From contig JAFCMP010000268.1 in NCBI GenBank assembly GCA_017506865.1, positions 372,001 to 436,000 of the forward strand: a stretch of DNA of 64,000 bases, given 5' to 3'. Both the position numbers and the translations under genes were made by a program. Below the pieces are notes generated by a model. It was not told the DNA's origin, ran no database searches, and saw only the letters and a list, made by a program, of their open reading frames with translations. Within the stretch, counting starts at the first letter, position 1. Every line of letters starts with the position of its first letter. This document shows positions 4,303 through 59,417 of the stretch, piece after piece. The stretch comes from Tribonema minus (Eukaryota > Sar > Xanthophyceae > Tribonematales > Tribonemataceae).

Positions 4303-7300
4303 TCAGGACAGGGGCAGGAACGTCGTCGAACGCAGGCGCTTCATGGAGGACATGTCGGTTGAGCGCTGCTTTCCCACGATGCCCGTGTAGCGCGGGTCGC
4401 CGCGGCTGCGCACGCGGCGGTGCGTGGCGTGGTGTTGCCGGCCTGAAGGGGGGAGCCGCGCGTACGATTTGGTCTGCGCGCACGGTAAGCATACGGACAG
4501 TAGGTGTTCTCAGTTAAGAAGGTACTTCAGTAATACTTATTTCAGAACGACACTAATTGTGGCACGACTAGTGTACACAATGGCGCACCAGCGGCTCTGC
4601 TACATGTTTACATGCCTGCGAGGACACGTTGGGCACTGTATCATTCGTCAGGGTTGGGGTTGAATTTAGACCCGGATGCAACAACCTCAACTGCGGCATG
4701 AGCGCAGCACCACAGCCGCGAGTCAAACACCCGTCAGGAGCGCCTCCTCTTTAGGCTCTCATCTCAAGTTCAACTTGAACTTCAGTGCTCCCCTTTCGGG
4801 GAGGCACGAAGCCACACTTGCGACGCTGCGAAACTGCCACGCGCAATGTGTCACAGGCACTCACCATGACCCCGTCGTTCACCATGAACGCGTGCGAGAG
4901 GCCCGTGTGGTAGCGGCTCAGCTCGCTGCCGCGCCGCCGCCCTCCGTGACCCCCCTGCACCCCCCCCTGCCGCGGCCTGTGAATCGCCACCTCCCTCGCA
5001 AGCCCCTCCTTGATCTCCTCATACTTAGCGGAGAGGGAGCCATGCTCCACCTCTTGCTCCAGAGTGGAGGTAACGCGGCGGTGGGGGACCGTAGGGGGCT
5101 TGGCGAAGGGCGGCCCCTGCAAATGGAGGTGCACCCGGGGGGGGGGGGGGGGGGGGGGGAAGATCAGGCCACGGCAGCAAGGAAAGGTCGGTGTGGTGTA
5201 CTTTATCAAAGTACTATGTGTGTATGGCGGTGCACGTGGTTCATACTTCTGTTTGCATACCTTGAAGTTCGTGCATGATGTCGACGTGCATGTTGTCATT
5301 CGGGCGATGTCGGGTAAAGTGATCGTCAAGGCACTTCAAGACTCTTGTCATGTTGATAATGCAGATTCTGGTAGCAAGCTTGACATCAATCATCTGAGCA
5401 TCATCACGCTTCTTCACGCCCTAAGCGAGAATGCATGAAATGCACATGACACAGGCTCGCGCAGTACGAGCATCTGCTGCAATGTCATGCGAAACAGTGA
5501 AGCCTGGGTACCTGCCCTTGCACCAACTCTCTGAAACTAGTAAGCGCAACTGCCAGAAGCGTGCAACTGCCAGCAACAGAAAGCAACTGACCTTGCCCTT
5601 GGCGGCTTGTTGCGCCTGCTGCTGCTCTTTGGTGGTGCGCGTCTTCTCTATTCTGCGGCGTTTGCGCTCGTCTTCCATCTGCCACTGGCGCACCTCGCGC
5701 GTCGCGCGCGTCAGCATGCCCACAAATGTGGCCTGCGTACCAAAACAACAAGCGATGTTGTTCTTGAATAAATACTGTGAAAAGGAGAAAGGGCAGAAAA
5801 AAACAAGTATCTAATAAAGTTAAAGATACACTTTGTCGTCATCTGCCGCGTGGCGCCGCGCGCGGATGAAGCTCCATATTCCGGCAGTCTGACTGACAGG
5901 AGTAACTAGAGATTCGCGCAAAACTGTCTTGTTCATCAAAGCGGGCTGGCTGCACACCGGCCAGCAATCAGCAGCAGAACAGGATCAGGCACCGCTAGTG
6001 CAATGGTACCACTCCCGCACTGACAGTTGCGTATCCTGCACAAACGGATGCTCGCATGCAAATTGACAGAAGCCTTTGCTGGTAAGCTGATCCCTAAATA
6101 CTGTAGATAGATCAAATACCACTCCCCAGCAGTTTCAAGTAAAGCTTGCTACGATTCTTCTCCGTAGTCGAGGGTACATAGGTACCATCACACGGGTGTA
6201 CATGAAAACCAGTTTACGTAGGTTGCAGTGCAACTGGGCTTATCGCGCAAACTGCAGATGAAGCACAACTCACCAGCAGCTTGAAGAAGGCCTTGCTGCT
6301 GGAATTGTAGCAGTCCTCGCCAAACTGCGCCGCCCAATCCATAGACCAAGCATCACAGGGCTCATTGCCCAGTACACAACAGTTCCGTCCTTCGAATGGC
6401 AGCAAACAAAGCACACAATGCGCCACTCACCAGGAGCTTGAAGAAGGCCTTGCTGCTGAGCTTATCGCCGTCCTCCCCAAACCGCGCCGCCGCCTCCTTG
6501 TACTCGGCAATGGCGCGTACGTGTGCGTCCTGCAGCTCCTCAAACCCTAGAAGCTGCACCTGCAAGAACCCCCGTGCCGCTTCGCAGAACCTGTCGTTGG
6601 GGGGCGCGCTGGCGTCCTCCTCTGTGAATTCCAGCTGCTCCTTGACCACTTTGAAGCCCAGTCGCAATTGGTTGATCTGTTGAGCAAGGGGGGGGGGGCA
6701 TGATTAGAACAGGTTATGGTTGATCAACTGCAGCAGTGGCCTGTGCGTCTGCAGTGCGCTGTGACAACCGCCAGAATTCCAGGACAAATTGCCTGACAGG
6801 ACATGCGAGGCACACCGCCTACGGCAGCACAGTTTGGTAGCCAACGAATGCTGTGATGCAGCAGGTGCTGACATGAATGGGCGCCAGGTCCTGAAGGTAA
6901 GTTGTGAGCGATCAAGGAATGGCTCAGATAGATACAGACTATGCGTCTGTAAACGTCATTGGTCCCTTGGCCGATTTAGAAAGCGCTTCACTCTATGCAC
7001 ACTGGTTCAAGCATGTGCAGGTTTTATCCTGACCCTGCCTATCCATGCAGAGGCTCCATTGCACGGTGTGCATGAAACAGCTCTCCTGCGCTGAGCCGGC
7101 GCCTGTTGCAGTTGAAGTACACCACTTGAACTAGGTCTCTTCAGGGACTTCAACTGTAAGACTGTACTCTTAAGGCTGTACATTAGAGGTGGCAGCGGCA
7201 CGGTTTCTCACGATCTTGAACATATGTTCTCACAGACATGCGTACCGCCTGTTGGACGTGTCAACGCGAATGGCCTTGCCAACACCGCCTCTGCCACATT

Positions 7301-10300
7301 ACTACAACCAATGTGAGGTTGTAGTAGCTGCCCTGATTAAGGTCAAACAGCAACACTGAAAAAAGCCCTGGTACCTACATGCCATGTGCAGACACATTTG
7401 TATGCATGCTCACACCCAAAGATGCATACATATACACACATACACAAGTTTGCACTGTAGAGGTTATGGCCTGTGACATATTAGAGCTCAACGACCTTTT
7501 TGATTCGTTTTCATATTTCAACACAGACATAGGCATACTTCAACACAGAAGTGGGGTTACGCACGCAATCTGCACAAGACAAACGTATATACTTCGTACC
7601 TGCTGTTGTAGCTCGCATTAACACATATATAGACTTTGAAGTATGCACTTCATGGATATAGGTCATGACATACTTCAACACAGATAGGACTTTGTGTTTA
7701 GTTCAACACACAAGTAAGCTCAAACCAACATCTACATACACAGATACATACTATACATACATACCTGCTGTTGTAGCTCGTCGAGGCCTATGGTCGCGGC
7801 CTCCTTGCAGTTCTCCAAGTCCTCCTCCAACTCAAGAACTTCCGGTTGAGACTGAGGTGGCAGGCAATGCACAGTAATAAAAGTAGATTGATTACCATTT
7901 GATCGTGTATGAACTTCCGGCCGGTTGAAACTGAGGTGGCAGGCAATAAACAGTAATGAATTAATTAGCCTTAGGTCGTCCATGAGGAACCACACAGCTA
8001 CATTGCGGTAGCAGGCATCGCGTACAAGTGTCTTTTAAAGTCATGATTTGGTAGCGCAGTGTGATGATGCAGTGGAGCGGAATAGTGCGCAGGTCTTTTG
8101 GCAGAGACAGTGCATGTGCAAGATTGGAAGGAAACTTCAACTACTCATAGTAAACTTGAATTGGTGCTCTTCGCGAACACACGCAAAACCACAAGTAGAT
8201 TGTAAACATCAAGTAGTTGAACTTGCCTCTTTTGCGTACTCCACTAGTACATGCAGCAGGGTCTTCTTCCTGTCGAGAGTCTTGACGGTCTCCAGCTGCA
8301 GCAGCGATGCCAGCTTGATACCCTTTGCATCTCCCTGGGAGGGGGCAGTAACGCATGTGAAGCATCAGAATCAGATGCTCCATGTTACAGTGCCGCGAAC
8401 ACAAGGGGATCGAAACTTCAAGCACGAAGTCCGACGATCTTGGGTGTGACTACACAAGGATGTGCACACCTACATGGGTAGTCCGCACGTACACCGGAAA
8501 GTGATACTACATGAAGCAAGGTCGAACTTCAACTTATGCGAGTCATTCATCATGCAGCAGCGATGCCAGCTTGATACCCCTTGGCGTCGCCTTAGGAGGC
8601 AGCAGCGCATGTGAAGCACACACGCCAAAGACCATTTCATTTCATCCTGTACTTTCCAGTGCGCCGTTGGGCGGCAAATATAACAATAAAACTCCAAACA
8701 TGCAGTCTGCAGACCTCTTGTGGCATCAACACCGCCAAAATCAAATGCTATGTCAAAAATACACTGTAATTGTAATGCCACCACCACTACCGCTGCCGCT
8801 GCCGCCGCTGCCGGTGCCGCCGCTGCCGCACTCCGCTGTCGCCGCTGCCATTAATGCATACTTGTGGGTGGTTCATAAGTTTATCATTGCATTTGAATTT
8901 ACCAACTGCTGGTGGTGATTTCCAGGCGTAATTTATTGGTTGCCAGGTGTGCATGATCAAGCTTCAGCGCAGCAACATCACATCTAGCGTGCCTTGAGAG
9001 TGCTCTCGAATGCACTGCAGTGGTTGCCAAGTCTATGTTGTCTAGCGTCCAACATGCAGGTCAAGGACAGCTGAAAAGGCTTCTCAGATCATCCTCTGCA
9101 TGAATACTTCGAATAAAATGGGATGCGGGCCAGCACCACGTGCGCACCTTGGAAGTGCCCTCGTTGAGGAAATTTCCCAGCGCCAGAACGATCTCGAGAA
9201 CCTTGGGCAGGTGCTTGCTCTCTAGCGCCTCCATCACCGCCATGTGTACCATCTTAACGCGCGCCTCTATGCGTTCCGCGTCCTCCACGTATGCGCGGAT
9301 GAAAATGGTGCTGTCCATGCGTGCCGTGTAGCGCGGAACTTTGGAGATGGCCAGGAGGAGCTGCGGGGGCACGATGAAAAGGGGGGGTTTGGCGTGACTC
9401 TGTCTCTTTTTTGAGAAAGTAGCAGCATTTTGGCGGCTGCTTATGATGCCTGATAATCACTGAATACATACGGCTGCTTATGATGCCTGATAATCACTGA
9501 ATACAGTTAGGAGCAGCACTTTGAGCATGGCTAGGAGTAGCTACGGGGCATTATGGGTAGGGGGAAAAGGGGGTCGAACGTAAGCCTTGAGAGAACGGCG
9601 GCATTATGGTATGGTTGTTCGTTACGGTGCCTGGTAATCACTGAATATACTTGGGAGCAGCAATTTCGAAATGGCCAGGGGTAGCTAGCTGTGGGGCGTG
9701 ATATATAGGGGGGAAATGGGGTTAGGCCTGAGCCTTTAGCGCGCAGCGGCACTATGGTACAAGCGTTCATTACGGTGCATGGTAATCGCTGAATATTCTT
9801 GGCAGCAGCACTTTGAAAATGGCCAGGAGTGGAGGAGCTGCGGGGTGCCATGGGTAGGAAAAGAAAGGCGTGCCATGGGTAGGAAAACAGAGGCCTGCGG
9901 GGAGAAACACACGCTTCAATGTACATGCACATACATGCACACATGGGCTGGGAACAGCGCAGCGCCCTGCAAGGCCGCCTGGGACGGGAATAAAACAAAA
10001 ACATAGAAACGATATCTGCGAGAGTCAATCGGCCCACCCACCCATTCTTTCACGGGGTCAGACAGTACAGTGCGGTGTCAGTTTCTTTTGTTGCTGATCG
10101 GCGAGCCACCAATGGCGCCCTGTCTCACAACCATACAACCATTCCTAACCCTAACCCTGTTCAAATGAGCGCTGTTTTGTAGTACTCAGGTTGCACTTGA
10201 AGTTATGCACTTGACGCTGCAGTTTGGTTGAGAGTGTTCGAGATCAGCTCCAGATCTTCTGCATGGCTGACTCAGTAATTCTGAACTGGAATGCCCAGCT

Positions 10301-13300
10301 TGCCGTGCTTTTGTAACACCACTTCCCTTCCTACACACGAGCACGTGTGTGTGTCTTGTTGCTGCCATGGCCCAAGCTCAGGCTCCTCTGCACAGTGATC
10401 TGCGCAATGTCAGGATTGCAACAACCCTACAGTAGGCCAAACCGTATAACCACCGCCTACCCTAATCCTAGGGTTAGGATTAGGATTCAAACCCCACCAG
10501 GTTTTAGGGTTAGGATTAGGGTAAGGGTTAAGGCCAAACCCTACCTGGGTAACCTCGTCCAGCTCTGAGGGCTCCCCTTTGTAGTTCTGGAGAGTCCTCA
10601 GGAGGGACGGATCGGGCGCCATTTCGCGTAGTGCCAGCAGATTATCCGTGGTGAGAGTCCTGTCGCTCATGGTGTAGATCTCCTCAATCACCTTTGCAGG
10701 CTGCAGGTGCAAAAGTGGCGTTTCAAATAAATTAGCAACTTAAAGTGCTGCTTTGTGGATCATGAGCAGGGTGACTGTGACAGGGCTCCTGCTGCTCATG
10801 GCGTAGATCCCTTCCATCACCCTTGGCAGGCTGCAGGGTGTGGAGAGGCAGCGCCACGAGAAAAATGGCAGTTGAACTAAAACCTGAAGTACCATATCGC
10901 AGGTTTGATGTTTGTGGTGCGGGCCCTGTCGCTCATCATGGAGGATCTCTTTAATCACCTTGGCAGGCTGCACTCGCAAAGAGGTAGCGCTTGCCGCGAT
11001 ACACAGAGGCGTCTTCTAGACCAATACTTCCAAGTTCAGATGCACTGGTGATCTCAGACGAGGGTCCGGTTGTGCACATCTATGGCCACTGCTGCCCTGA
11101 CCTTCTGGTCACGTGCTTTAAATCTGAATCGACTTCTGTGGCAGGTGTGGTGACAGTATGGACGGTATGTATACCAATCGTGTACATATGGAAACGAATC
11201 AAAAGATCGTAGAGCTCTAGGTGACAAGGAGTGGTTAGCCGCAAGTGCCTTCCACCAAACCGTGGTCGCCGCAGTTGCAGTCATTGGCCACAAGTCAAAC
11301 AGTGCCACCATATCCGCAGTTATCAAAAGTCTTCCGTGTGCAAGCTTTTTAGCATTTGAGGCATGGGTGTTCAGTACGGAAGATCTCACGTGTTCGGTAG
11401 GCCAGCTCCAGCTAGTAGCCCAAAACAGGAGGTGCAGCAGCTACTGACAGCGCTCTTGAATGCGCGTCGTGTAGAAGGTGGTGCGCGGGCTTTGCAGCGG
11501 CGTGCGGCGACGCGAAGGCTCCAGGTTCTTCAGCACATATATTATACTGCCATGCTCACCTTCATGCGCAGGCGCTTGACGATTGTGTGGCAGATATGTG
11601 TACATGCCGTATGGAGGGGACGTATATCAAATTTGTACCTACATGTACATACACATGCCACCATGCTCCACGGCTCACCTTAATGCGCAGCCGCTTTATA
11701 ATTTGTGGCAGATAGGGGTAAGTATATACCATACGGAGGGTATGTATAAAAAACATGGACATACATACTACCATGCTCCACAGCTCACCTTCATGCGCAG
11801 GCGCTTGAGTGCGATGCCGACGTTTTGCTTGGTCTTGGCGTCCAGAAGGGAGCGTGCCTTGGCCGCCTGCGCTGCTGCCTATTGTGTACAGTGGTGGCAT
11901 ATATGGGTAAATGGTTTGAATAACACACTATGAAAATGTGCATGTAGGGTAGGTATATGTGTCGGACGCAGGGTCTGGTCCCGCTGATGCTTGCCATACG
12001 CATCATACTCAAACGCAGCCTGCAGTGCACAGTGGCGGTGCATGTGGGTCATTGGGTACATATGAGTATAATAGGTATGAGGGGGGTACATAAATGTATA
12101 GCAAGCGCGGTCAGGGCACGAGACAACCAGGAAACGCAGAAGCGTCACTGGGCGCTGGCATTCGAATTGTGTCTTGGGTGTTGCTACGCCGTTGTAGACA
12201 TCCATAACCCAGTCCTCTACCTAACGCCTGACACTAACCCTAATGTACGGTTAACTTAACCCTAACCTCGCGACAGTACCCAAGTAAGCGATGCGCACAG
12301 ACCTTTTTTTCCCCGAGTGCACTCTGAGCTAAAGTTCACAGAATGCACGACCACCGACCTTGCTGATCTTGGCAGGCACAGCAGCGGTTTCCCCTTCTGC
12401 AGGGGGCTTCTCCTCAAAGGCATCGCGAAGCTTCTCAACCGGCAGCGGTACTGAGTTGGGCTGCAGCTCCGTGAACACGGTCTTCTCAAAGCTGCTGCGG
12501 GTGGGCTCCAGGGGGTCCCAGTGAACCAGGCGTCTCTTCTGCAGTGCTCAGGAGATGAAATACTTGAAGTTAGAGGACTCAACTGACAGATGTATCAATT
12601 GGACATGAAATTCGCAGTTGCGCTTGTGCAGTGCTCAGGAGAGAAAATGCTTGAAGTTGGATGGCTCATCTGACAGTGCGTAGCGTGCGGACACGAAGTG
12701 CGCAGCTGTAAGAGGCAGGCATCCAGCCCAGGTGAGGATCTATCATATCGGACTGAATAAATGTCAAGTAGACAAGGCAAGAGCCTGGCTAGCGAGTCGA
12801 ACAGCTGGGCTCCAGGGGGTTACAAACGCCGCTTCTGCTGTGGTCAGGAATGACGCAATTTGAAGTTTGACGACTCATCATGTTAGGTTAGCAACTGGGA
12901 GTGAACTGCACAGCTGTTGTAGGCTGGCGGGTGTGCGATTCAGGTCAGGAGCTAAAGTAATGAATAACAAAGGTGAAGTAGACAAGGTAGCCTGGCTAGC
13001 AAGTCAAAACAGCAGGGCTCTAGGGGGTCGATTGGACCAGGCGCCACTTCTGCAGTGCTTTGAAGAGAAAATACACGTGAAGTTCAGCTGAACATACCAC
13101 TTGTTCGACTCAACATACCACTGTTTAGTTGACACACTTGGCAGTGGGGAGAGAGCGGCGCAGACTTTAAGTCAGCACATGCTCTCAGATTGAGGAACAA
13201 ACTGAAGGAGGGAAATATACACTTCGGAAATAACTAGTCTGCATGTATGCGTATACACTCACCGGCCGAGCCTTGTTGCTCATCGCTATGGCAGCCTTGA

Positions 13301-22390: not shown

Positions 22391-23050
22391 GCCTGCAGCC
22401 CCGCAACGTGACGTCCCGGCGTCAGAGCCCCTGGGGCACGACGCCCGTGGTGCAGCTGTGTGTCGCCTGCCCTGCTGCACGAAGCCAGCCAGCTGCCGGC
22501 AGCGCCTCCCACCTGCTGCTCGAGCCAGTATACGCCTGAAGCCTTGAGAGAGTCTTGCCTTCTTTTTCACGTCATGGGGTGGCTGGGAACGCAAATCACC
22601 AGATCAACTCTCAATCCTCACAGCTCTCACAGCAGCGCCTAGTTTCGGGTCAATTTCTGGTTCAATCGCGATATGCAACGGTCCAACTGCCACTACATAC
22701 ACACACAATGAAAAGATCAGATCGATCTAGAAGTATCAGAATGCGCTGTTTTACAGGCAATGACTGCAACCTGGCCCGCGCGCAGCACCAACCGACACCG
22801 CCAACAGGCTATAGCGCACGGGGATCATGGCACAGCTACGCAATCAGCAGGCGCCCGTGCCGTGAGCGCGCACCCAGCGACAGCACTGAGGCGCCCAGGT
22901 CCAGCGTGGCAGCCGCCACAATGATCCTTGGTGCCAGCTTCAAAGACGGGTGGGGCATGCTGGGCAAGGTGTGCCCAGGGCGGTGCAGCGCCGTGGGCCC
23001 CACCCCCACCCGCGCGACAGCCAGCACATACGAGGGCACAACGCCAGCGG
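22225..23050 (+). repeat. Inverted repeat, left arm (formin promoter and first exon)
   Basis: The reverse complement of 24868-25675 matches this arm over about 0.8 kb with very few differences in the parts I aligned by eye. On the minus strand the arm contains ATGCTGAAAAG followed by GTAGGC at 22390-22380, which I take as the formin start exon and donor. The outer about 150 bp is then formin intron 1 and the inner about 650 bp is 5' UTR and promoter. Both arms share an open frame with APRIIVAAATLDLGASVLS; it shows no recognisable domain, and identity between arms is explained by the duplication itself. Confidence 0.9.
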
Positions 23051-24867
23051 TGCCTTATGCTTGCTTTCTGCGGTACTCTGCCTGGCCAACGGAGGCTGTC
23101 ATTGGACCCCTCTGTTGCAAAGCAGGCCACTCAGCCCCTGCCTAGGACACGGCAGGCAAGATGGGGTTCGCGGAGCAGCAGCTGTTGGTGTTGTATGTAA
23201 GAGGAAGCGCGAGGACAGCAATCATCTCATGGATGCTGTTGAGCTCCTGCTGCAGCATGTGCTGAGCACATTGTGTGCCATATATGGCTGCGTTATACGC
23301 TCTCTCACCTGCTGTGCCGCTTGGGGCCTGCACAGGCCGCGGCCGTCGTAGAGATCATGCTATAGCGAAACCCGGCTCCTCGGGCTTCCCTGCAGACTCT
23401 GAGGCCCAAATGAACCGCATTCGCCGCAGGATGCCCGCCGGGAAATGCTTGGACGGGGCGGTGTTGTTCACCTGCAAAGTCAGCAGAACTGGTTTTGCAA
23501 AGCTGAGAAAGGATGCAATGCAGCCACTGCGGCAGCTGAGGGCTCGAATGACCTGCATGTGAGCAATAAATGGATATCATCCAACGTTCTCCACTCGCCG
23601 TGGAGTTCAACCTGCCAACCTCCGTGCTCGGCTACAGGGGAGGGCAGATGCTACAGCCGTTGCTGAGATGTCCTCGATGGATGCCCAGATGGTGGTTGCT
23701 ACTGCGCTCTGCAGACACGAGCCACGACGCCAGCCCAACGGCGTACTACTATGTATGCTCCACGAACTTCAACCAGCAGCACTCAGCTGCTCTCAGTCCT
23801 TTGGTAACAGGAGCTGAGTGCTGGTGCACATCAGCTTACATCCACTTTAGATGAGTGGCGTGCGCCAACTGACAGTGTCCTCAACTGCACAGCAGATCTC
23901 ATTACATTAACCATTGCTGACTGTAGAGTTGATATCTGCAACTATGCTGCAGCTCCGATTCGCATTGGCCATTGCTGACTGTAGAATTACAGTGGATGCG
24001 AATACTGCACATGAGCACACGCCTGGCTGTGACGCATCCCTGCTGGCAGGCGTTCATGTGACGTGCCTGACAACATGTCCTGTCTGCCCGGCATGGTGCG
24101 GCTCTGGCATCGCGGTACTTGCATGCACAGCAGCTGAGCTCTTGGCGTACAGTACTTGTGCACTTGTATCAATACAGGCCTTAAACCTTGAAGGACGCCG
24201 GGAGTTCAGTGTGTTCCTGGGGATCATAATTTACAGAGGTATGCAGCAACCTCAGGCTAGTCTGCACTGTGCTCATGTAGCAAGAGCTTAGACACTGGTG
24301 ATGCAATACAGCCTTGCATACGCGCTCCGTGTGTGTATACACATAGAAGTATTGATATATCTACTTCAGAAGTGAGTGTTTGAGGCGCTCCGCCAGCTAC
24401 TGTGCCAACAATTTGCGCGCAGTGATGACGATCTGATGCAAATGGCAAACCCAGCTTTGTTCAATGCATCCGCCTCCCCCCTGCCTGAGGACAACGCTGA
24501 GTGCCTTGCCATCTTCTTAGCCAACCGATTTGTCTGCTTGCCCAGCATGGCGCAATGCCGAGCATGACACCAGTTTGCCAGTGTGGAGCTGGACCTTCGT
24601 GTCATCCACGACCGCGGCAGCACAGCCATTTGAGGCATACTTTGTGCCCGTCAAGTACAAGCTCGCTGTGAGTGCGCGCACACTTATCTTCAGCACTGTG
24701 CCCTTGCTGCAATAGACGCTGCTAAAGTGCAGACACCCTGGGTCAATGACTGTGCTCCCCCGATATCCTGGTACCTTGACGACGCTGGCGTCCTCATTGC
24801 AAATGATAGGTTCTGCCTTCACATGCGCTGCAGGCACCGCCTCTGGGCAGTGTGCGTTATGTTGTGC
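23051..24867. other. Spacer between inverted-repeat arms, no recognised gene
   Basis: This 1.8-kb segment separates the divergent formin and GBA2 start regions. A minus-strand open stretch at 23558-23355 (NNTAPSKHFPAGILRRMRF) looks mildly protein-like but matches no family I recognise. A short duplication (CCATTGCTGACTGTAGA) occurs near 23910 and 23966. No transposase signature or terminal structure was found. Confidence 0.5.
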
Positions 24868-25675
24868 CCTTTATGTGCTGGCTGTCGCGCGGGTGGGGGT
24901 GGGGCTCACGGCGCTGCACCGCCCTGGGCACACCTTGCCCAGCATGCCCCACCCGTCTTTGAAGCTGGCACCAAGGATCATTGTGGCGGCTGCCACGCTG
25001 GACCTGGGCGCCTCAGTGCTGTCGCTGGGTGCGCGCTCACGGCACGGGCGCCTGCTGATTGCGTAGCTGTGCCATGATCCCCGTGCGCTATAGCCTGTTG
25101 GCGGCGGCGGTTGGTGCTGCGCGCGGGCCAGGTTGCAGTCATTGCCTGTAAAACAGCGCATTCTGATACTTCTAGATCGATCTGATCTTTTCATTGTGTG
25201 TGTATGTAGTGGCAGTTGGACCGTTGCATATCGCGATTGAACCAGAAATTGACCCGAAACTAGGCGCTGCTGTGAGAGCTGTGAGGATTGAGAGTTGATC
25301 TGGTGATTTGCGTTCCCAGCCACCCCATGACGTGAAAAAGAAGGCAAGACTCTCTCAAGGCTTCAGGCGTATACTGGCTCGAGCAGCAGGTGGGAGGCGC
25401 TGCCGGCAGCTGGCTGGCTTCGTGCAGCAGGGCAGGCGACACACAGCTGCACCACGCGCGTCGTGCCCCAGGGGCTCTGACGCCGGGACGTCACGTTGCG
25501 GGGCTGCAGGCATGCTGAATAGGTAGGCACTGCAACGCAGATGGGCAGATCGCCGCCTAGCCAGCGCCGGGAGCCTTGTTTCGCTTTGCTGCGCAGGATC
25601 TGCCTCGTCTCTGTCGCTCTGGGGTGCCCCTCTGGTGGTGCATCGCATCTTAGCATGCAGAGTGCAGAGAACTGC
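24868..25675 (-). repeat. Inverted repeat, right arm (GBA2 promoter and first exon)
   Basis: Mirror image of 22225-23050. On the plus strand it contains ATGCTGAATAG followed by GTAGGC at 25512-25522, differing from the formin-side exon at one base of codon 3. Joined to the acceptor at 26112 it reads in frame into GBA2. The inner boundary is near the shared TATGTGCTGGCTGTCGCGCG, and the outer boundary near AGTGCAGAGAACT. Confidence 0.88.
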
Positions 25676-28600: not shown

Positions 28601-31600
28601 GCGACGCCGCGCTGCCGCGCTACTACCGCTACACGCTCTTCAACGAGCTGTACTTCCTGTCAGAGGGCGGGACGCTGTGGCTGGACGCGTGCGACGGACG
28701 CGCCAACGCTCAGCAGCAGACCCCCCCTCTGGGGGGTGCGGGGGGGACCCCCCCGCACCCTCCCGCCCCCCTCATAGACCCCCAGGCGTCCCCCCTGTGG
28801 GGGCCTCCGAGGGAGGGGGGTCTCGGACCAGTAGAGGCTGCATCGCCTGCCAGCAACGGCACCAGCGGCGGAGGGTCATCCTTTCTACAGATGACGACGC
28901 CGCTGCTGAAGCCCGGTGTGGCGCGCAGTGCTGAGCCGTGGTATGGGGGGTTGCGGGGGGGGGGCGAGCGGGGGGGAACCGGGGGGACAGCGCACAGTTG
29001 GCGGGGGCCGGGGCTGCCGGCGAGTGAGGCGGAGACTGCTGCAGATGCTGGATGCGGAGGCGACGCTGCTGTTATTGGGCAGCTCTTGTATCTAGAGGTG
29101 AGGGAGCGACGCAAGAGGGTGTGTATGTACGTTGCTGCTAGGTGTGTGCTGCGTGTTGGGAATGCCTGAATCGTAGGCTGTGTGAGGTACGCGACAGTTT
29201 GCGACTGTCATGCCCAGTGGTGATGTGTAGCATAGGATGGTTTGTTACACTTCAAGTTGTACTTCCACTTCAGTATTTGAAGTAAGATTTGCTGGCCCGG
29301 CCATGTATTAGACGACGTGCTGATGCTTGTGTTACAGCAGCTGCTGACCATCGCCGCTGCTGTAAAATTTATCTGCAGAGCTAGGGTTAGTGTTATGGTT
29401 GCACTAGATCAGATGACCTTGACGTGCAGGGGCCTCCAGCAGTTGGGGCTTGGATTAGGCTACGCCTTCCGCATTCGCAATTTGCACACCCACTGCGCAG
29501 ATCTGCGTGGGAACCCCGTGTCGCTGCCTGGTGTCAGTGCTCTGCGGGAGCCATGTGTCAGTGCTCAGTGTACTTGCGCATCATTGCTCAACAGAATACA
29601 TGTGTATGTGTCAGTGCCCAATCTGAGGCGCATTATTGCTCAGCGAGAGCCACGTGTCAGTGCTCTGTGTGACAGCGTGTCAGTGCTCAGTGTGAGCGTG
29701 TAACATTGCTCAGCGCGAGCCCCATATCATGGGTGAGTGCGCTGGCCTCTCGCTGGTGCCTCTCGCTTGTGTCTGTGTGACTTGTTGTGACCCTCAACTC
29801 ACTTACTCCAGCAGACCTCCCCTTTCAGCGCGCATGCTTGCCAGGCAAGACCTTCGAGTACCTACTTTGCAATGGCCATCCTCAATCACTTCCGCCATGT
29901 CTAATTGCAACCGTAAATACGCGCTCACACCTATTTGTAAAGCCTAAAGTGGCCTTATAGAAGTATGTCATCCCCAAGATCAACTCCCATCTCAACCCTA
30001 TTTCCAAATACGCGCGCATACGCACACGCCGCGCAGGGCCTCGAAAACTTCATGTACAACACCTACGACGCCCACTTTTACGCGTCCTCATACCTACAGT
30101 GGCCTTGTATGTCATCCCCTACGTGACAACCAACTCCCACGTCAACCCTGACCCTAGCTATGCGCATGCGTACCCGCCATGCAGGGCCTGGGGTACCTCA
30201 TGTACAACACGTACGACGTCCACTTCTACGCGTCCCATTCCAACCCTAACCTGAATTACGCGCGCATACGCACACGCCGCGCAGGGCCTCGAGTACCTCA
30301 TGTACAACACGTACGACGTCCACTTCTACGCATCGTTCGCGCTTGCGCGCCTGTGGCCCGCACTGGAAATGAGCCTGCAACGCGACGTAGCCCTGTCCGT
30401 GTTCCGTTCCGACAGGGCACGGCGGACCCTTCTTGGGGACGGTTCCGCAAGACCGAGAAAGGTCCGCGGTGCCGTTCCTCACGACGTCGGCACCCCGTCG
30501 GAGATGCCGTTCCTAAAGGCGAATGCGTACGTGTTTCAGGACGTGAGCCGCTGGAAGGATCTGGCGCCCAAGTTTGCGCTGCAGGTATGTAGGTATAGTC
30601 ATGTATGTAGGTATAAGTTTTGCTCCCACTAGGTATGTAGGCATAGTATGTGCTGCAGATACGTAGTCAAATGTCATGCTCCCACCAGGTATGTAGGCAT
30701 AGTACGTGCTGCAGATATGGGTACATGGTGCTTTTTGATGTATGTGGGCATGGTATGCTCCATAACCTATGCCGCAACTTGGGTGAATGCATGTGTGCCT
30801 GATGTAACACATATTCCGTCATGTATGGCCTCATGCAGTTTGAGGTGATTAGCACTACAACTTGTACGCTTGCGAATCCACTTGCGATCGCTGAGGTGAT
30901 TTGAGGCTTGAAGGCTGAACTCGGGGCTGGCGCGGAATGCTCCAGAAGCTAGCTGCATGTACTTTGTAGTGCTTGATAGTGATACAACGGCCACCAACCG
31001 CATTACCCTGCTCATGCTCAACAGCTTGCGCATTGACCCCCCCCCCCCTACTGCTCGTTGTGGTGATGATGCTCAACACACTACAGCCCCAGCGTCATTC
31101 GTAGGCATGGCCCTGCCTGCGGGCGGTTGAAGAAGTCTTTGAGAGCAATCTGTACCCGTATCTGTCCTCACGCATTCGCTTGCAAGTCTGCTGTACTGAG
31201 CACCTGCGAGACGCATGACTAGCGAGATGGCCTTCATGGCGCACTTCGACATACATACCTTCTGTTGAGCACTTGCTCTTGGGTCTGGACGACAGTCTGC
31301 CGTAATTGACAGCGCAGCTAAACCCCTGCAAGCGCGTGGCCAGTCAAGTGTCTTTTACGATATGATACGTACTCATACATGCCTACCCTCGTGATTTTGC
31401 TTGTCAGTCTGCCATGACTACGCCGTAATTGGCAGCGCCGAACTCATGCCAACCTTGTGGCCAGCAACTTGGCCTCCATGATCAGATGTGCGCCGCATGC
31501 CTACCCTCATGCATTCGCTTACATACATGCATGCCCTCGTGCATTCATGCGTCAGGTCTGCCGTGACTACGCTGTGACCGACAGCACTGAATTCCTGCAA

Positions 31601-34600
31601 GCCGTGTGGCCGGCTGCCGTGGAAGTAATGCGCGTTGCTGAGGCGTGGGACACTGATGACGATGGCCTTATTGAGAACCAGGGCTTTCCCGACCAGGTCT
31701 GTACCACAGCTACAGCCTTATTTGTAAAGTATGCATCAAAACACTTCACCAGTTGAAGTATGATACCCAACTACAACTTCACTTTGAAGAATGTATTGAG
31801 AACCTGGGTGTTCCCGACCAAATCTGTACCAAATTGCGACTTTATGTGATCCAAGAAGTCGCCGAAAGTGCGTGTTATAAATGTCTTTGATGAGACTTTG
31901 CGTACTTGAAGTATGGCGGCCTCATTGAAATTCAGGGTTGTGCCAACCAGGTTCGTACCGATTTGCCCGCTTCGTTGTGAACCTCGCATTTGGGAGTGCT
32001 CTCAGGTGTGGCGATGCATTTGCGAAAGCGCACGTACAGGTCTCTTTCACCTTGTGTGATCGCTATATGTGTTTATGAACAGGCCTCTTCTGACCAGGTG
32101 TTTTGGCACGCATGTATGCGATCGCAAGCGCTAACATGAAGAGTTTGCATGTAGTGGGAAATATTGCGTGTGCGATTTGTGCGTCTTGATCAGTGCCCCA
32201 ATTATTGTTTCGCCCCGCTGCCGACAGGCGGCATTTGGATTGCAACATCCCCAGTTGCTTGAACCTTTGTGGGTGGCAGCACTGGCAGCATGCAACCATT
32301 ATGTATTCAATTCAAAGTGTGGATCATCTGTGTTCAACAGCAGGAGGCCTTCCGTGTCCTTTCACTGCGCTTCCTGACATGCGCCCCGTTCATTGCTGCG
32401 CCCCACTGCAGACGTATGACATTTGGACAGCCACAGGCCCCAGTGCCTACACCGGGGGCCTTTGGGTGGCAGCACTGGCAGCCATGGGATCGATGGCAGC
32501 GGCATTAGGAGACGATGGTGCACAGGAGCGATATCAGGGCATGTTCGAGAAAGCCAAGAGCGCCTACGATGAAAGACTCTGGAATGGTAGCTATCATGAC
32601 TACGATGATGGCGGCGCCGCTCACAGCGACAGCATCATGGCAGATCAGGTCAGTTGAAGTACGTGTCACACAGTAAGTTGGAGATTGAAATTGAAGTAGT
32701 AAATGGCGTCGGCATCATGCCAAATCACGTCTTTGAAGCATGTTGGATGCATGTTGCCGCACGTGTGTAATTTACCAGCTCCGTGAGCTCCATTGCGCAA
32801 TGAGCACATTGATTGACCAAGTGACATTTGCGTGCTTGCTCCAGCTGACGTGCTGCGCAACCTTTGTGCGCAGCACACCAGCCCCCACACTAGCTGCCCG
32901 AAGCTTGTTTGCAACTTTCATACTCATTTCACATGTTATTCCCTTTCTCATGCGGCAGATGGCAGGGCAGTGTTATGCGGGCTGTTGTGCATGTGTTGAG
33001 GGCTATATATGCACGCCTCACCCAGCAAATGTGCAGCGCAGACTTTGTGCATAGCAAACCGCTTCCTTCACTAGGTGCTGGAAGCCCTTTCTGTCCCTTC
33101 AACACGTACTTCGTCTCGTACTTCATGTTGCAGATGGCAGGGCAGTGGTATGCTCACTGCTATGGCATCCCCCCAAACTATTCTGCCCATCATTAATTTA
33201 CATACATGCCCACCCTTCCAGCCCCTGAAGGGCGTTTCCTTCACAAATGGGTCACAGGCGTCAGAATATGTAAAGCGCGCATATGGGCACAGAGGCCTAC
33301 ACCCCAAGTGGACAAACTTCAACACTTTGCACGCACTTCATGTTGAACTCCACGTTGCCAATGCAGGGCAGTGGTATGCGTGCTGTTGTGCATGTTTGAG
33401 ACAGGTGGTGTGTGCACATGCGCGCCTGACCCAGCCAATGTGCAGCGCCAACTTTTAGCGCAGCAAATCGCCCCCCACACTGGCCGCTGTAAGCCTGACT
33501 GTCCTTGTATCAATTCTCGCTTAGGTCACGAACAAGCTCAGATAGTTCATGTCGAGCCTGCTATGAGTCTATGCTTGTGACAACTTGAAGTGTCTCAGTG
33601 CACAACATTGTCTAACTTCAACATGCACTTTATGTTGAACTTTACGTTGCAGATGGCGGGGCAGTGGTATGCTCGCTGCTGCGGCGTCCCCCCCCCCTGT
33701 GGACCCCCCTAAGGCACGCATCATACACTAACTTCAACATGTACTGCATGCTGAACTTCACTTTGCAGATGGCGGTGCAGTGGTATGCTCGCTGCTGCGG
33801 CGTCCCCCCACCCGTGGACCCCCCCCGAGGCACGCATCATTATTCAACTTCAACACGTACTTCATGTTGAACTTCGCATTGCAGATGGCTGGGCAGTGGT
33901 ATGCTCGCTGCTGCGGCGTCTCCCCGCCTGTGGACCCCCCCAAGGCACGCTCCTCGCTGCTAGAAGTGCTGGCTCACAACGTTCGGCACTACGCCATCAT
34001 GACTGCGAAGGAGCGCACACCGCGGCGGCAACAGCAAAGCAGGTGATTGCCCTGACCCTAGCTCTAACCCTACTCATGCAACGTAAGCCTCAAATTGCTG
34101 TGACTCTGAAATCGTCCAACACTGAGCAGATATGTGGCAAATGCACAAAGGTGACGGCAGAATAGCAGGTGATGCAACTGCCCCGCCTTTTTGTTTACAA
34201 ATATGCAGCGGGCACACCGAGGCAACAGCGAAATGGCAAGTGAGAAACCTGACCCCCCCAGTTCAACTCTAAAATTAGCTTAACTCAGCCTTATATGAGA
34301 ATCTGCCCAACACACAGCGGATGCGTAGCAAGCACACCGCGGCAGCAGAAGGAGGGCAGGTGAAAAGTGCCCGATGTTCAGTAAATTGTAGCCAGCACAC
34401 TGCAGCTGCAATCAGAATGGCAGAAGATGAAAGTGCCTGAGTCGTTGGTAGGGAGCACACCGAGGCAGCACCATATCAGCAGATGATACAATTGCCTACT
34501 GTCATGCTCGCCCGACGCAAGTAGATAGAACCAGCACACCGAGCAAGCCAAGAAACGGCAGGTGATGAAACTGCCCCAGTGCTCAGAAGATGTGTGCCGA

Positions 34601-41000: not shown

Positions 41001-44000
41001 AGCTTCAAATTGCCGACGATGTCGCGCCCAGTGCCCAGCTGGCCTCTCTTGTAGACGCCACGCCGTGGTGTGAATCCAATCTAGAAAGACGCCGTGGTGC
41101 GGATCCAATCCACCACACAACGGCGTCTACAAGAGATGCCAGCTGGGCACTGAGCGCGATATTGTCGGCAATCTTGAAGCTCACAGATAGCGAGAGGAGC
41201 GCGAAAAGGGTCCAGAAGGCGCAGCAGTAGCTGCAAGCCGCCCCAGCCCCCCCCCCCCCCCCCCCCTGTACGACAGTCCTGGCGTGTGCGCGCGGTTGCT
41301 GCTGCGTTCTGTCTGTATACGCTGCACGCACACGCCAGGGACACACACAAACCCTCAAAAGTGACCTCCACGCGCATGACTGGCAGGCTACACAGCTCAC
41401 CTTCTGCCCATCAAGCACGCGCGGCGCGGCAGCCAAGTCCTCTGTCTTCCCGTCGGTGCACGATATGCATGTATACATTCATACCACTCTAGGTGGTAGG
41501 TAGTACTATAATGTAGTCGGCACCATCACTAGGCAGCTCAACTCACCTTCTGCCCATCAAGCACGCGCGCCGCAGCAGCAAAGTCCTCCGTCTTCCCGCC
41601 AGTGCATGAGCCGATGTACACACGGTCAATCTTGGTGTCGCGGCAGTCCTTAGCGAGGGCCTTGTTGTCTGGGGAGTGCGGCATCGCTACCACAGGCTCC
41701 AGCTGCGACATGTCGTAGGTCTTGTCCGCAAAGTACGTGGCCTTGGCGTCTGCCGCAAAGACCTGAGAGAGTATCAGGGATAGTTCCATATGCAGGACTG
41801 GATTTGTGAGCAAACTGTTGGGGAGGATAGTTCTTATGCAGAACTGGATTTATGAGTGAAAGGGCAGCTACCAGGCACAGTTGTGAAAAAAACGATTTTA
41901 TACACACTGCAACTTCAAGAGTCATTGCATTATTTGACTGCCCCAAAAGGAGGGGGTTGCGACACAGGGGGGGGGGGGGAGGGGGTTGCGACACGCACGC
42001 GAATTGTTAAATTCTTGACTTCGCTGTGGCAGAAGCTCAGATTTGTCTTGAAAATAGTGACAGCAAAGCGTCAGTGGTTGATATGACACACAAAAAACAG
42101 CTGATGCGATCAGCGCCGTGGTGTTGATTCTGTCAGATGCAACAATGCAGGCATTGTCCCTGCCCTGCCTTATCCCATTGCTGCGTAGAAAATTCAACAC
42201 AACTTCAAGAACCAGTTGAAGTGTCGTCACTTGCGACCGACTGGATACTTGTATCTTAGTCACCACATCATGCGACCAATCGATGCATGCTGACGGCCTG
42301 AGCTTTTACTTGTAGACATTGCTGAGCACTTACTTGTGTGTAAACATGAGCTTTACGCCAGTGACAGGAGTGGACAATGGCGCCGGTAGCACCTTGACGA
42401 TTGAGTGAGTGAGTGAGTGAGAGTAAGTACGTCAGCTGGCACCCCATATGCAGCACCTGAGCGCCATGCTGCTCAGTGTCAAAATGCTATATTTACAAGT
42501 TGGGCCCAATTGACGATTGTTGCTAAAATGCTTGATAGCATCTATGCTACTGCCGGCACTCAATGAGCCGAAGTGACAAGCATCACACTGGATCCCAACA
42601 CATCTCACTGACAGCTTTGGAAAAGTTGCGGCTGATGCATAGAGGTACAACTCTATGCTGCTCTGCACATTCAATCTGTCCTGTCTACATAGTTGAACAA
42701 TGAATGCCTGATTTTGCCCACACAGTGCTCGTCACCATCTGCCTGCATCACATGGAATTTGTGTGTTCACATGTTGGAAGTGATGCTGACTTCTTAGTCC
42801 TTCTGCTGCCCTATTGTAGATGCTTCGAGCAGCCAGAACGCACCTCATAAGGCTTTTGCCCCGCATTGCACTGGTCCACGCACGCGCTTGCCATCTCATC
42901 AGTAGGGATGATATCGTTCGTCTTTATATGTGGTGTCGTCCACAAGGATCTGAGATAAAACACTTCAACTGTATTGACCAACAGCATTCAAATCTTGCCC
43001 GACATTGCGCTGCCACAGCCAGTATGCCCCCTACCACGGCTCGGGTGAGTCAAACAACAGGGCGTTATGATACAGCACAAGATCCTAGATGTTTTCAAGA
43101 AGATAGAACGCACCTCATAAGGCTTCTGCCCCGCATTGCGCTGGTCCACGTACGCCCTAGTGATCTCATCAGCAGGGATGATACCGTTCTTTCCCCCCGC
43201 CTCGATAGCCATGTTGCACAGCGTCTGCCTCTCCTCCATTGACAGCTGCGACAGCGCGCTCCCCGCAAATTCCATTGACCTGCAAGTGGTGATGCAGTTT
43301 GTCAGGCACACTATCAGGCACAAATTGGCGAAAATGATAAAGAGTTTGAAGTTGGTCCGGTACAGTACTGTAAACTTGAAGTTCAAGAGAGCTACGGCTT
43401 CTACCTGAGCAACTAGGTGCAATGCATCAGTTGTGCCATACCGCACATGACTGTGGAGCCATTCATGGGTCTGCAGCTGATAAAGCTTCCAGATTACTGT
43501 CAATTTCAAGTCTTGATGAGCGCATACCCGTATTCTTCGAAGTACAATCCGATGCAATGCGATAGTCATGTCACACCAACATCAGTGTGGACAACAGCCT
43601 GGAGTAGCAACGCAGTGAGCAGCACTATGCTAAACATCACTATGTATTAACAAAGGCACTGAAAGAGTTTGTAGTACTCTGTATGTGCATACACAAGTAC
43701 ATGCATAGATACATACCGGTAAGTTGCGCCGGCCACACCAATGTCGCCAATGATCTGCAGGATCACATCCTTAGCCAGAAGATAGTCCGGGATCTCGCCA
43801 TTGAGAGCGAATCGCATGGTGGCAGGAGTCTGGAAATGAAGGAAGCGTTCATGAACGGTTACTGGTCAGCAATGTAGACTAGGGACATGAAGTCGCCAGA
43901 AGACGTGGGCGTGCTCTGTCAGTGCACTGGCGACTGGCACTGATGAGCGCGCCACTGCAATCAACTGAATATGAGCTGGAGTGTCCAAGCTCAGGATGAT

Positions 44001-56700: not shown

Positions 56701-59417
56701 CGCTCAATCAGTTTGTGTCAAACTACAGGCTTTCAAGAAGCACTACTTCTTGTAGTACTTGTGCTTGCTTGATTACGCACGTTCGCCCCAAAGGCCTCGA
56801 GCAGCACACGGCGCTCCAATGACATCGAGTCCGTGAAGGACACTATAAGCGCATGGTACTGTGTCTGAAATTTCTTGTTAGATGACGTACGTTCGCTCCA
56901 AAGGCCTTGAGCAGCACACGGCGCTCCAGCGACATTGAGTCCGGCATGGTGAGGGTCAGCTGGTAGCCGCGCGCCGCCGCCACCATTGCCAGCGCAATGC
57001 CAGTGTTGCCTGACGTGGGCTCCACCAGAATCGTCTTGCCCGGCTGTTCTCACAGCAAGAGAGGGGAGGGGGGGGCGAAGCAACAGTTGATGAGAAAACT
57101 CAAAGTTGCATATCAAGTGCTGCAGAGTGAATTGCACACGATCGCCTGAGCACAACAATGAGAAAGTTTTGTGAAGATGCCTGCAACCTGGCATGTGCTG
57201 TGATGATGCTCAGCACACAGAAAGGACCACCAAAACGATTTGGCGGTCTGTCTTGCATCCTTAGCAATAAGCACTGCGTTGGCGTAGACCAGTCCACAGG
57301 GTACTGAGTAGCACTGCAAACTTCTGTGTGCGAGCATCAACGCATGCTTCATGTTGCTCTCTCGAGGTGAGGAGAGATGAGAAGAAATGTACGCACGCCT
57401 CATGCTACAGACCACAACGTCCCTGCTGTCTGCAGTCGCCCGCAAGCATGCTCTGGTACGCAGTGACCATGTGTCAATGCAGGCTTCATATTGCATCACA
57501 CTGTGCACAGCCATGTACGATGGGAAAATTGTTATTAGTGTGGATGGCTGTGTGTTGCCAGGCACCAGTGCCGAGTTCAAATATATGACTGCGTCGCGAT
57601 GACACATGATCATAGGAGTACGTATCGGAATTGGCACATGGCTGCTTATTTGTAGCTACAAAAACGTTGAAATGGCACTGGAGTGGGTGATTTTCACCCT
57701 TCAATGATGCTCACCCCTCCTGTCACGCCTCGGACAGTATCTGCCTGACGTGCCATACTTGCGGTAAGGTGTTGCCAATTTCAGGGGAAAAAGCCCACCT
57801 CGTGCTGTGTACTATCAAGCATTGCTTCTCATTTGCTGTCGACGCTTGCTGCCGCTTCTTGTTGGTACAGCTGGCAGTGAAGTTCCAACAGCGCGACCCA
57901 CAACACACATGGCGGGTCATTTTCCACGTCCAACACAGGGGGGTCACGACGGGTCTGCTCTGCTAGCCTCACCGCACTTGAACTGGGACCGCTCCCGGTA
58001 GCGTCGGGGCGAAATCCTGGGCTAAATCTGACCCTGGGCGTAGGGTTTGCAGTAATTGAGTAGGGTTATAATGCCAGTACTTTGCGTCGGCAGCGCTTGA
58101 GTCTGAGAGCAATCGCTCAGCACTGTGTGGCCGTGGCACGGTATGCTCAATGACTGTAATCCGCTTGAGCAGTATATAACTATCACACAAAGCCACTGTT
58201 CATTTACTGGCCGTGAAGCTGAGCGGTAGGGACACGATACAAGAAGTCAGCCACGAGCAGCACCAAACCGCTCATTTATTTCATGTCCAGCCGCCAGTTC
58301 GCTATCATACTGTGACCGCTCTGATATCGAGCTCTCATCAATGGAAACGAATCAAAAGATCGTAGAGCTCTCTTATATCGTGACCTCCCTGTAAGCCACT
58401 TCCACAGGTGCAGCGTGCAGCAATGCTCACTGCCGCTCAACACAGGTCTCACCGCTCTTGTACTGTGACCATTTTAAATCAAGCTCTCTTATATTATGAC
58501 CCCCCACCCCCGTAAGCCACTTCAACTATTGCAGAACGCAGTAATGCTCACTACCGCTCAAACAGGTCTCACCGTGATAACGCCACGCTTCTCCGCCTCA
58601 ATGACCATGCTCAGTCCGATCCTGTCCTTGACCGAGCTGCAGGGCTCCATGGACTCCAGCTTTGCCAGGATGGTGGCCTTGCAGTCGGGCCCCGTGACGC
58701 GGTTCAGCCTGACCAGGGGGGTCCTGCCGATGAGCTCCGTCACGTCATTGGCAATCTGCGCGCAACATGATGAGCCAGAGGGTGTATGCTGAGCGCTGCT
58801 GAATCGATGGCTTGTATCTTCTCTATCACTTTCCTTCACAAATATGTTCAAAAAGAAAATTGATTAAATAGAGTATAGATGTGCCGCATGATAGCTGCTG
58901 AGGGCTCACACAGTTTGCCTTGAGGGGCAGGCACATGCAGCGCGTCTGCTACGAGGCAAGTAGTCAGGTTCCAAGCAACAAGCTCTTTTCTGCCTGCGAA
59001 ACCAGGCAACGTCACGCTATCCAACAATGGTCCACATTGTGTGTATGAAGCAGGTAAACAGAGGCAAAGCATAGATATTTCGCAACTGTTCAGTACAAAT
59101 GCCACACAAACAGAAAACCTGCGCAATGCAGCCCGCACGAGCCATCACGTAACACAAGCAGCGAACGCAGCAAAAGCAAACGCAACAAGTGCTGCCTTTG
59201 AGGTGCACATGACTCAGGCTCTTTCAACTTCTTGCAAGCCATACAGCAACCGAGGGCATTGCAATGCTGTGAGTATGGTCTTACAAAAATTTCAAAAATC
59301 ACACCAGCCCGCAGCTTCACGCCAACTCAAGCTTACCTTGGGATGGGTCAAAGTGGCAGTGTTCTTGTCGGCGGCATCATTGGCCGAGCAGGCGGCGGCT
59401 GTCAGCTTGTTGCCCAT
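50707..59417 (-). CDS. Cysteine synthase (O-acetylserine (thiol)lyase)
   Basis: PLP enzyme that makes cysteine from O-acetylserine and sulfide. Nine exons: 59417-59337, 58755-58573, 57043-56891, 55950-55903, 54949-54875, 54211-54074, 53235-53104, 52281-52176, 50837-50707. Total 1047 nt, 348 aa, every phase consistent. Motifs: [24 protein letters not shown] with the PLP-binding Lys; [12 protein letters not shown] substrate loop; [57 protein letters not shown] phosphate-binding loop; [49 protein letters not shown]. The N-terminus is short ([20 protein letters not shown]) and not an obvious transit peptide; MGNKLT fits a loose N-myristoylation pattern. It is probably cytosolic, but that is inference. 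It shares a 274-bp divergent promoter with the MYND gene. Confidence 0.95.
53318..53366 (-). repeat. Junction echo of cysteine synthase exon 7 acceptor
   Basis: GGGCTCATATGAGCAACCGC then AACAATCTGTTGTCAC copies 53218-53242 (GGGCTCAACCGCAACAATCT then GTTTGC) with an extra ATATGAGC. The following intron text (ACATGGATGTTGGTGGCATCAT near 53400 against ACGTGGATATTGGTGACATCAT at 53271) is also repeated, so the whole unit is a tandem duplication of about 110-130 bp. Confidence 0.8.
55078..55140 (-). repeat. Junction echo of cysteine synthase exon 5 acceptor
   Basis: GCCAAGCTCTGCCTCAATCG then CCTGCCTAGAG copies 54922-54955 (GCCGAGCTCTGCCTTGATCG then CCTCCGCCTATGG). The minus-strand TAG acceptor is kept. 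It lies about 140 bp upstream in the intron. Confidence 0.8.
56772..56848 (-). repeat. Junction echo of cysteine synthase exon 3 donor
   Basis: About 70 bp near-identical to 56886-56945. CGCACGTTCGCCCCAAAGGC then CTCGAGCAGCACACGGCGCT match, and the minus strand reads [17 protein letters not shown] followed by GTGCGT. Frame and donor are intact, so it could be used as an alternative exon end. It is about 115 bp from the real junction. Confidence 0.92.
58300..58565 (-). repeat. Tandem array at the cysteine synthase exon 2 donor
   Basis: Units of about 120 bp contain TGACC..CC.GTAAGCCACTTC, AATGCTCACT.CCGCTCAA and CAGGTCTCACCG. The last ends at the real donor (58572), the middle one at about 58455, and a partial one begins near 58300. 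An isolated 30-bp interspersed-repeat end (58341-58370) interrupts the first unit. Confidence 0.85.
58341..58370 (-). repeat. Interspersed repeat, isolated 3' end
   Basis: ATGGAAACGAATCAAAAGAT then CGTAGAGCTC is the exact reverse complement of the family 3' terminus seen at 11188. Only these 30 bp are present, flanked by GAGCTCT on the left and AGCTCTCTTATA on the right. Confidence 0.75.

Follow-up and report, generated by a model that had tools for sequence, protein, structure and literature searches.

At several loci in the genome of Tribonema minus the introns contain degenerate copies of the ends of their own flanking exons, and we give slightly better than even odds (about 0.54) to the reading that these introns were lengthened by repeated local direct duplications spanning the splice junctions, which arose or survived more often at junctions and came from the repair of staggered breaks. 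In young pairs a copy (hereafter an echo) typically measures ~40-135 bp, lies on the intron side of the junction and consists of the exon end and some intron sequence, frequently including the splice site. Because introns decay, the source of their sequence can seldom be read. In the present case, ~2062 of 6128 bp (roughly a third) of the non-exon sequence of a formin gene and 2215 of 5627 bp (two fifths) in its paralog, less one echo that lies outside the counted region, fall within the range of recognisable junction copies. Intact site and echo form a dated pair of intact and decoy splice sites, with the codon positions as an internal clock.

Sequences and gene models

The window is a stretch of 64,000 nucleotides (C268:372001-436000) of a genome of 158.18 Mb in 554 contigs; the DNA is eukaryotic, with GT-AG introns. 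Beyond it we sampled twenty 10-kb pieces at round coordinates on four contigs, one of them picked for a formin paralog (L009), and GC content was 51-62 % across the sampled pieces. Window repeats were listed by self-BLAST. Pfam supports a formin (PF02181), GBA2 (PF12215 and PF04685) and the families of two further genes (PF00330 and PF00291), which, from the preliminary description of this DNA and our reading of the exons, are probably LEUC and cysteine synthase. Formin exons were set by hand from homology between the window gene and L009, ~30 kb away, and those of the three other genes by hand from Pfam homology and the first version of a self-trained, unvalidated gene finder.

In the first seed of that finder, 864 of 4302 nt were four minus-strand exons in a wrong-strand reading; after retraining with a correct seed, 198 of the 215 earlier exons were found again. 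The retrained finder underlies the final figures for the non-formin codon positions and the relocation test. The first one underlies the control on 168 exons, repeat coverage and its relation to GC, the spacer classes and spacer words, the breakpoint rows, the earlier count of 190 pairs, the non-formin rows of the pooled splice-site count and the intron shares given above, while adjacency and census of the formin genes and the formin rows of the codon counts use homology-set exons and are independent of it. Low-complexity matches, exon overlaps below 15 bp and targets within the own exon were dropped from the echo alignments, and piece L036 was left out of the retrained-model count because it overlaps L030.

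Junction copies in the window genes

Within the window, self-BLAST lists 38 direct pairs whose members are separated by under 3 kb. Inverted pairs number 12 over its whole length; one of them falls in the 1.6-3.2 kb bin and none is closer. The four genes formin, GBA2, LEUC and cysteine synthase together hold 37 local direct-repeat pairs: 22 contain at least 8 bp of exon, 10 are intronic and overlap an echo, one abuts a splice site and four are intron-only, although one of the four (12536-12589/12623-12676) extends 3 bp into exon 12359-12538. The duplicated blocks of exon edge, splice site and intron reported in the preliminary description are real, and its estimate of roughly 20 affected junctions in these four genes is near our own count of 18 (formin 8, GBA2 5, cysteine synthase 3, LEUC 2), one of the cysteine synthase junctions having just 66 % identity. 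It had also described copies from donor and acceptor sides, with some exons having both, as we find at GBA2 31544-31696 and formin exon f (Table 1). Its word tandem suits some plain tandems and arrays but not the many copies split by an unrelated spacer. Genes are unevenly affected, with echoes at 6 of 7 exons in GBA2, 3 of 8 in cysteine synthase and 2 of 10 in LEUC. As a separate feature of the window, a large inverted repeat joins 22540-23142 (+) and 24874-25362 (-), where open frames on both strands start with the same peptide.

Table 1. Echoed exons and their echoes in the window (LEUC and cysteine synthase are putative names)
Feature	Position	Strand	Remarks
Formin FH2 exon a	12359..12538	-	start copied upstream
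Echo of exon a start	12806..12877 (second 13015-13084)	-	plus acceptor-adjacent duplication 12536-12589/12623-12676
Formin exon b	11789..11866	-	end copied downstream
Two echoes of exon b end, donor included	11554..11696	-	
Formin exon c	10545..10715	-	start copied twice upstream
Echo of exon c start	10787..10837	-	
More distant echo of exon c start	10914..10980	-	
Formin exon d	9148..9381	-	
Array, ~148-bp units, two matching exon d start	9478..9858	-	
Formin exon e	8224..8337	-	
Echo of exon e start with acceptor	8553..8618	-	
Formin exon f, both ends echoed	7762..7854	-	
Echo of exon f start	7921..7960	-	
Echo of exon f end	7588..7615	-	
Formin exon g	6428..6697	-	
Echo of exon g end	6268..6334	-	90-bp spacer, no detectable kinship to flanks
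GBA2 exon (PF04685)	30285..30584	+	
Echoes of exon 30285 start	29943..30235 (29985-30086, 30162-30234)	+	telomere-like CCCTAA stretch at 30139-30161
GBA2 exon, both ends echoed (31374-31465, 31794-31831)	31544..31696	+	
GBA2 exon, start echoed at 32195-32289	32406..32654	+	
Echo series of exon 33876 start, including first two of three 116-bp units	32948..33835	+	
GBA2 exon	33876..34042	+	
LEUC exon (PF00330)	43114..43279	-	
Echo of LEUC exon 43114-43279 end	42817..42919	-	166-bp spacer, no detectable kinship to flanks
LEUC exon (PF00330)	41547..41762	-	
Echo of LEUC exon 41547-41762 end	41385..41463	-	67-bp spacer, no detectable kinship to flanks
Cysteine synthase exon (PF00291)	58573..58755	-	
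Copy of donor-adjacent segment 58482-58574	58366..58454	-	
Cysteine synthase exon (PF00291)	56891..57043	-	
Echo of exon 56891-57043 end with donor	56764..56833	-	

Each of the seven FH2 exons in the window formin is copied into the adjoining non-exon sequence on the expected side (E<=0.05), the copy of exon a sitting upstream of the first formin exon as defined here; the lone formin hit elsewhere is a reverse-strand match (E 0.041) from an eighth exon. Over the two paralogs, echoes occur at 14 of 17 exons at E<=1e-3 and at 15 of 17 at E<=1e-2. The census of L009 gave 25 pairs (16 exon-containing, 7 derived, none splice-adjacent, 2 intron-only), and by our reading one of the two intron-only pairs (5067-5136/5328-5402) is the intron part of a junction duplication. 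The formin on contig C518 has four exon-containing, two derived and four intron-only pairs, one of the last reading like a missed FH2 exon. At block level, six of the seven exon blocks map one to one between the window gene and L009, which argues that existing introns grew rather than that new ones were created. Exon d is undivided in the window gene and split in the paralog (L009 2955-3558), an intron presence/absence difference between the two.

Adjacency and spread beyond the window

Exon starts are copied upstream and exon ends downstream: 124 of 136 alignments (28 from formins, 108 from other genes) lie on the expected side, and this, together with the near absence of inverted pairs, bears out the earlier claim that each copy keeps the orientation of its exon and stays in the intron next to it. 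The comparison of exon ends with own and unrelated flanks that had been proposed as a check points the same way. With 50-mers from 168 ab initio exons, a score of at least 38 was reached in the own adjoining 600 bp by 10.1 % of starts and 16.1 % of ends, and in unrelated flanks by 0 of 840 per end; the reverse orientation gave 0.6 % and the wrong side 1.8 %. At the same score, 292 intronic 50-mers gave 3.1 % facing away from the exon and 8.9 % facing it. With the retrained finder, 51 of 162 non-formin exons are echoed and 96 of 108 alignments fall on the expected side.

Similar repeats occur elsewhere in the genome, on several contigs. Direct local repeats are present in 19 of the 20 sampled pieces; inverted ones are absent from 15, number one to three in L012, L017 and L028, and reach 14 in L013 and 55 in L027. 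Pfam-defined exons of other formins and of aldehyde dehydrogenases (ALDH) are echoed likewise, and in L036 an exon lies beside a four-copy array, while LEUC, the ALDH on C509 and pieces L019, L020 and L024 show few or no echoes. The GBA2 region gave only three short weak matches to the rest of the genome, and no second copy.

No allele lacking an echo was seen in the two contig pairs compared, C90/C179 and C144/C223. These are not clean allele pairs (94-95 % identity in the one, 90 % over 3.7 kb and then mostly unlike in the other) and show no recent polymorphic echo. Kinase-bearing stretches are common to C90/C179 and to C144/C223/C278, and the two compared pairs are diverged duplicates or haplotypes. 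A local duplication with a ~93-bp period (L043 4507-4615/4600-4705) is found in C90 and unlisted for C179; its copies are 82 % alike, so it is not recent.

Decay of the copies

A free copy next to a selected exon is expected to have accumulated the changes of a single lineage at codon positions 1 and 2 and those of roughly two at position 3 and in intron sequence. Pooled over the 136 alignments, mismatches amount to 194/2132 (9.1 %) at position 1, 218/2131 (10.2 %) at position 2, 380/2135 (17.8 %) at position 3 and 677/4005 (16.9 %) in the intron part, a ratio of 1 : 1.1 : 2.0 : 1.9. Positions 1 and 2 do not differ significantly (P 0.23), nor do position 3 and intron (P 0.40), while positions 1+2 and position 3 differ strongly (P 2e-20); the first finder had given the same pattern (187/2112, 204/2114, 397/2119, intron 655/3937). 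Echoes thus behave like untranslated, drifting copies next to selected exons. The preliminary description had called them frame-broken, which is correct for a minority, with gaps in the exon part of 43 of the 136 alignments, but not for the rest at a detectable age.

Splice sites are often retained, as had been noted: GT is kept in 40 of 54 copies and AG in 42 of 49, formins included. A rerun without formins gave GT in 36 of 48 donors and AG in 39 of 40 acceptors, for a drift expectation of ~0.81-0.82. Donor retention fits drift; acceptor retention in the rerun lies above the neutral 0.81 (P 0.003), an excess that could stem from the alignment or from a handful of related events.

Structure of young events

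Among 44 exon-overlapping pairs of at least 84 % identity, 4 are head-to-tail (spacer below 20 bp), 17 have a related spacer and 23 an unrelated one, as against 5, 7 and 0 among the 12 other pairs of that identity (23/44 vs 0/12, P 0.0007), a contrast that may be partly inflated, since the exon-overlapping pairs are older than their identity implies. The range of forms is wide. L015 holds a plain array with units of ~102 bp, and one 95 % pair is a ~197-bp tandem whose second copy later gained ~69 bp. Spacers unlike either flank separate L018 6277-6379/6427-6529 (93 %; 47 bp), L012 4046-4136/4213-4303 (90 %; 76 bp) and L013 9024-9064/9177-9217 (95 %; 112 bp).

A few spacers are telomere-like. 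Contigs C2 and C3 begin with TTAGGG arrays, which identifies TTAGGG as the telomere repeat. Telomere-like sequence makes up nearly the whole of spacer L021 5820-5861 and occupies the central part of the L013 spacer, and a window spacer (30235-30261) holds one CCCTAA unit, below the scan threshold. Without prior choice of words, the six most enriched 6-mers in spacers were telomeric, and telomere-like sequence covers 255 of 5645 bp in spacers and 1379 of 193144 bp elsewhere. By segment the signal is weaker: such sequence occurs in 6 of the 74 spacer segments, where 2.8 would be expected (P 0.06). Repeat copies flank 19 of the 64 telomere-like loci; random positions give 5.7 (no more than 12 in any of 200 draws) and shifted positions nearby 11.4 (no more than 20). 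We accept telomeric filler for some events but not as a general feature. Extension of both overhangs by telomerase was considered and rejected, the predicted polarity being absent (CCCTAA nearer the first copy in 8 of 10 cases, TTAGGG in 5 of 10). An introner-like family or common intron motif was likewise dropped: sense-biased k-mers revealed none and were for the most part simple repeats, the 8- and 9-mers including telomeric and TTGAAGT-like words. TTGAAGT/ACTTCAA words recur in introns in either orientation, and spacers are enriched for them.

Are duplications biased towards junctions?

A raw excess at junctions is insufficient evidence of bias because exon-anchored pairs decay about half as fast and stay visible longer. 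An earlier count had found 83 of 190 pairs at junctions, 42-48 being expected. Among all 184 pairs, 105 overlap an exon where relocation predicts 75.7, and this excess is gone once a two-fold detection advantage is granted (P 0.66). Young pairs (at least 88 % identity and 35 bp, all others being excluded from this set) were relocated within gene spans: 20 of 26 overlap an exon, 9.4 being expected, with P 2.5e-5 uncorrected, 0.0012 at a 1.5-fold, 0.011 at a two-fold and 0.097 at a three-fold detection advantage. The first finder had given 21 of 26 (P 0.0025), so that the result of the retrained one (P 0.011) is weaker; without the formin paralog piece, 15 of 20 overlap (P 0.031 at two-fold).

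In five homology-checked genes, hand grouping gave 31 junction and 3 intron-only clusters; the fair count is 29:3, as two of the 31 came from an exon-anchored search that has no intron counterpart, and adding the C518 formin unfavourably gives 31:7. These counts omit the ALDH on C509 (one exon-containing pair and 12 poly-C pairs). Uniform placement with a two-fold advantage predicts a junction share of 37 % for 900-bp, 56 % for 500-bp and 75 % for 300-bp introns, whence P for 31/38 is 2e-8, 7.5e-4 and 0.21, respectively, and P for 29/32 at 300 bp is 0.022. The bias is smaller if introns were short at the time of the events.

Simulations, which combined neutral decay with selection on exons, applied the same detection and had no large deletions, were compared as means of 8 runs with hand-set formin bounds (many exon-containing, fewer derived and hardly any intron-only pairs, introns of 600-950 bp). 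Over a grid of 144 settings no uniform-placement setting fell within these bounds, and some with a four- to forty-fold junction preference did. Repeats cover 13-22 % of exon-terminal sequence, 12-15 % of the 150 bp next to it and 8-10 % of the remainder; the near equality of coverage between exon-terminal and junction-near intron sequence counts against a junction bias. Targeting driven by GC was rejected, coverage having no consistent rise with GC inside a class, and no breakpoint consensus such as AG|G was apparent by eye among 60 rows for donors and 37 for acceptors, of which many are low-complexity.

Taken together, a junction bias is probable in the best-checkable genes and unproven genome-wide. 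The preliminary description had proposed that a junction-biased process lengthens existing introns and leaves decoy sites: that junction-spanning duplications do so, leaving splice-site copies, holds on several contigs; the bias itself is no more than probable, the all-pairs excess not going beyond detectability. Its alternative, that only junction-containing duplications are tolerated, fails because intron-only ones should be tolerated too.

Origin of the echoes and relation to known systems

We propose that a staggered break near a junction, with both overhangs filled in, would yield a direct duplication, and that filler DNA captured or synthesised between the overhangs before the ends are joined would form the spacer. 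Junction events would be tolerated, leaving one intact exon-plus-splice-site, and exon-internal events would be purged; duplications may arise or survive at junctions more than within introns, and later rounds might copy earlier copies into arrays. If intron-only events are truly too few, transcription pausing at splice sites is one conceivable cause. It is tempting to go further and regard splice junctions or exon ends as break hot spots, and long duplicated overhangs with captured filler, some of it telomeric, as a main source of intron growth, each junction keeping a private, datable archive; this broader version is speculative and we rather doubt it. Should the bias be mutational, exon-intron boundaries would be fragile sites, which would be surprising.

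A simpler account, which we regard as a serious possibility though not as the probable one, has small duplications falling uniformly everywhere, those at junctions only seeming favoured because selection on the exon copy roughly doubles the time for which such a pair can be recognised and because introns were short at the outset. The codon positions do show the exon side decaying at half the rate, a two-fold detection advantage absorbs the all-pairs excess, the cluster count is no longer extreme at 300-bp introns (P 0.022 to 0.21), and simulations begun at 80-bp introns yield few intron-only pairs. However, uniform simulations begun at 80-150-bp introns reach 240-610 bp, and the longer ones carry more derived pairs than are seen; the young pairs keep their excess at a two-fold advantage, and all five pairs of LEUC and cysteine synthase, with mean introns of 764 and 1016 bp, are at junctions.

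Other explanations fare less well than uniform duplication. That echoes are functional, as alternative mini-exons or selected decoy splice sites, might be read from those that keep splice site and frame and are called by the gene finder, and from the 39 of 40 acceptor copies with AG; yet mismatches at positions 1+2 are roughly half as frequent as at position 3 or in the intron, as expected of a free copy, which argues against translated mini-exons, and with only 36 of 48 donor copies kept and gapped exon parts in so many alignments, function is improbable. In alternative or mutually exclusive exons both copies are coding-constrained, unlike the 9.1/10.2/17.8 % mismatch found here. A mobile element family, introner-like and inserting near splice junctions with long target duplications, is a shade less credible still: the copy-spacer-copy layout looks like an insert with its target duplication, but the exon ends lack matches in unrelated flanks, GBA2 has next to none elsewhere, and the most enriched spacer words are telomeric rather than those of a family terminus. 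Introner elements are recurrent sequence within introns, whereas every echo matches its own exon only. Finally, an assembly artefact can be practically dismissed, since the copies differ with a codon-position pattern and occur on several contigs.

Junction-spanning duplication as the preferred reading has relatives among described processes. Among the papers listed by searches of the open-licence PMC literature we found intron gain by tandem duplication, but no description of genome-wide growth of introns by junction duplication. A close parallel is the potato RdRp gene, where a local duplication across an intron-exon boundary, acceptor included, made one new intron (PMC4974935). Both cases involve local direct duplication with splice signals; here, by contrast, existing introns grow, at many junctions and from donor and acceptor sides. 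Fill-in at staggered breaks through CST-Pol alpha and NHEJ produces small tandem duplications in human and mouse cells (PMC8355091). These share the direct orientation and a size of tens of bp to ~100 bp with the echoes but abut each other, unlike all but the four head-to-tail exon-overlapping pairs out of 44. Interstitial telomeric repeats are inserted at repaired breaks, with flank duplication at 6 of 130 loci in rodents and 4 of 25 in primates (PMC2246262); telomeric filler probably resembles this case, but here it is limited to some spacers and the duplications are long. Degenerate interstitial telomeric sequence is itself common in the sampled pieces and window (64 loci totalling 2522 bp in 264 kb, where shuffled sequence gives 115 bp), and a perfect TTAGGG x6 lies deep within contig C1.
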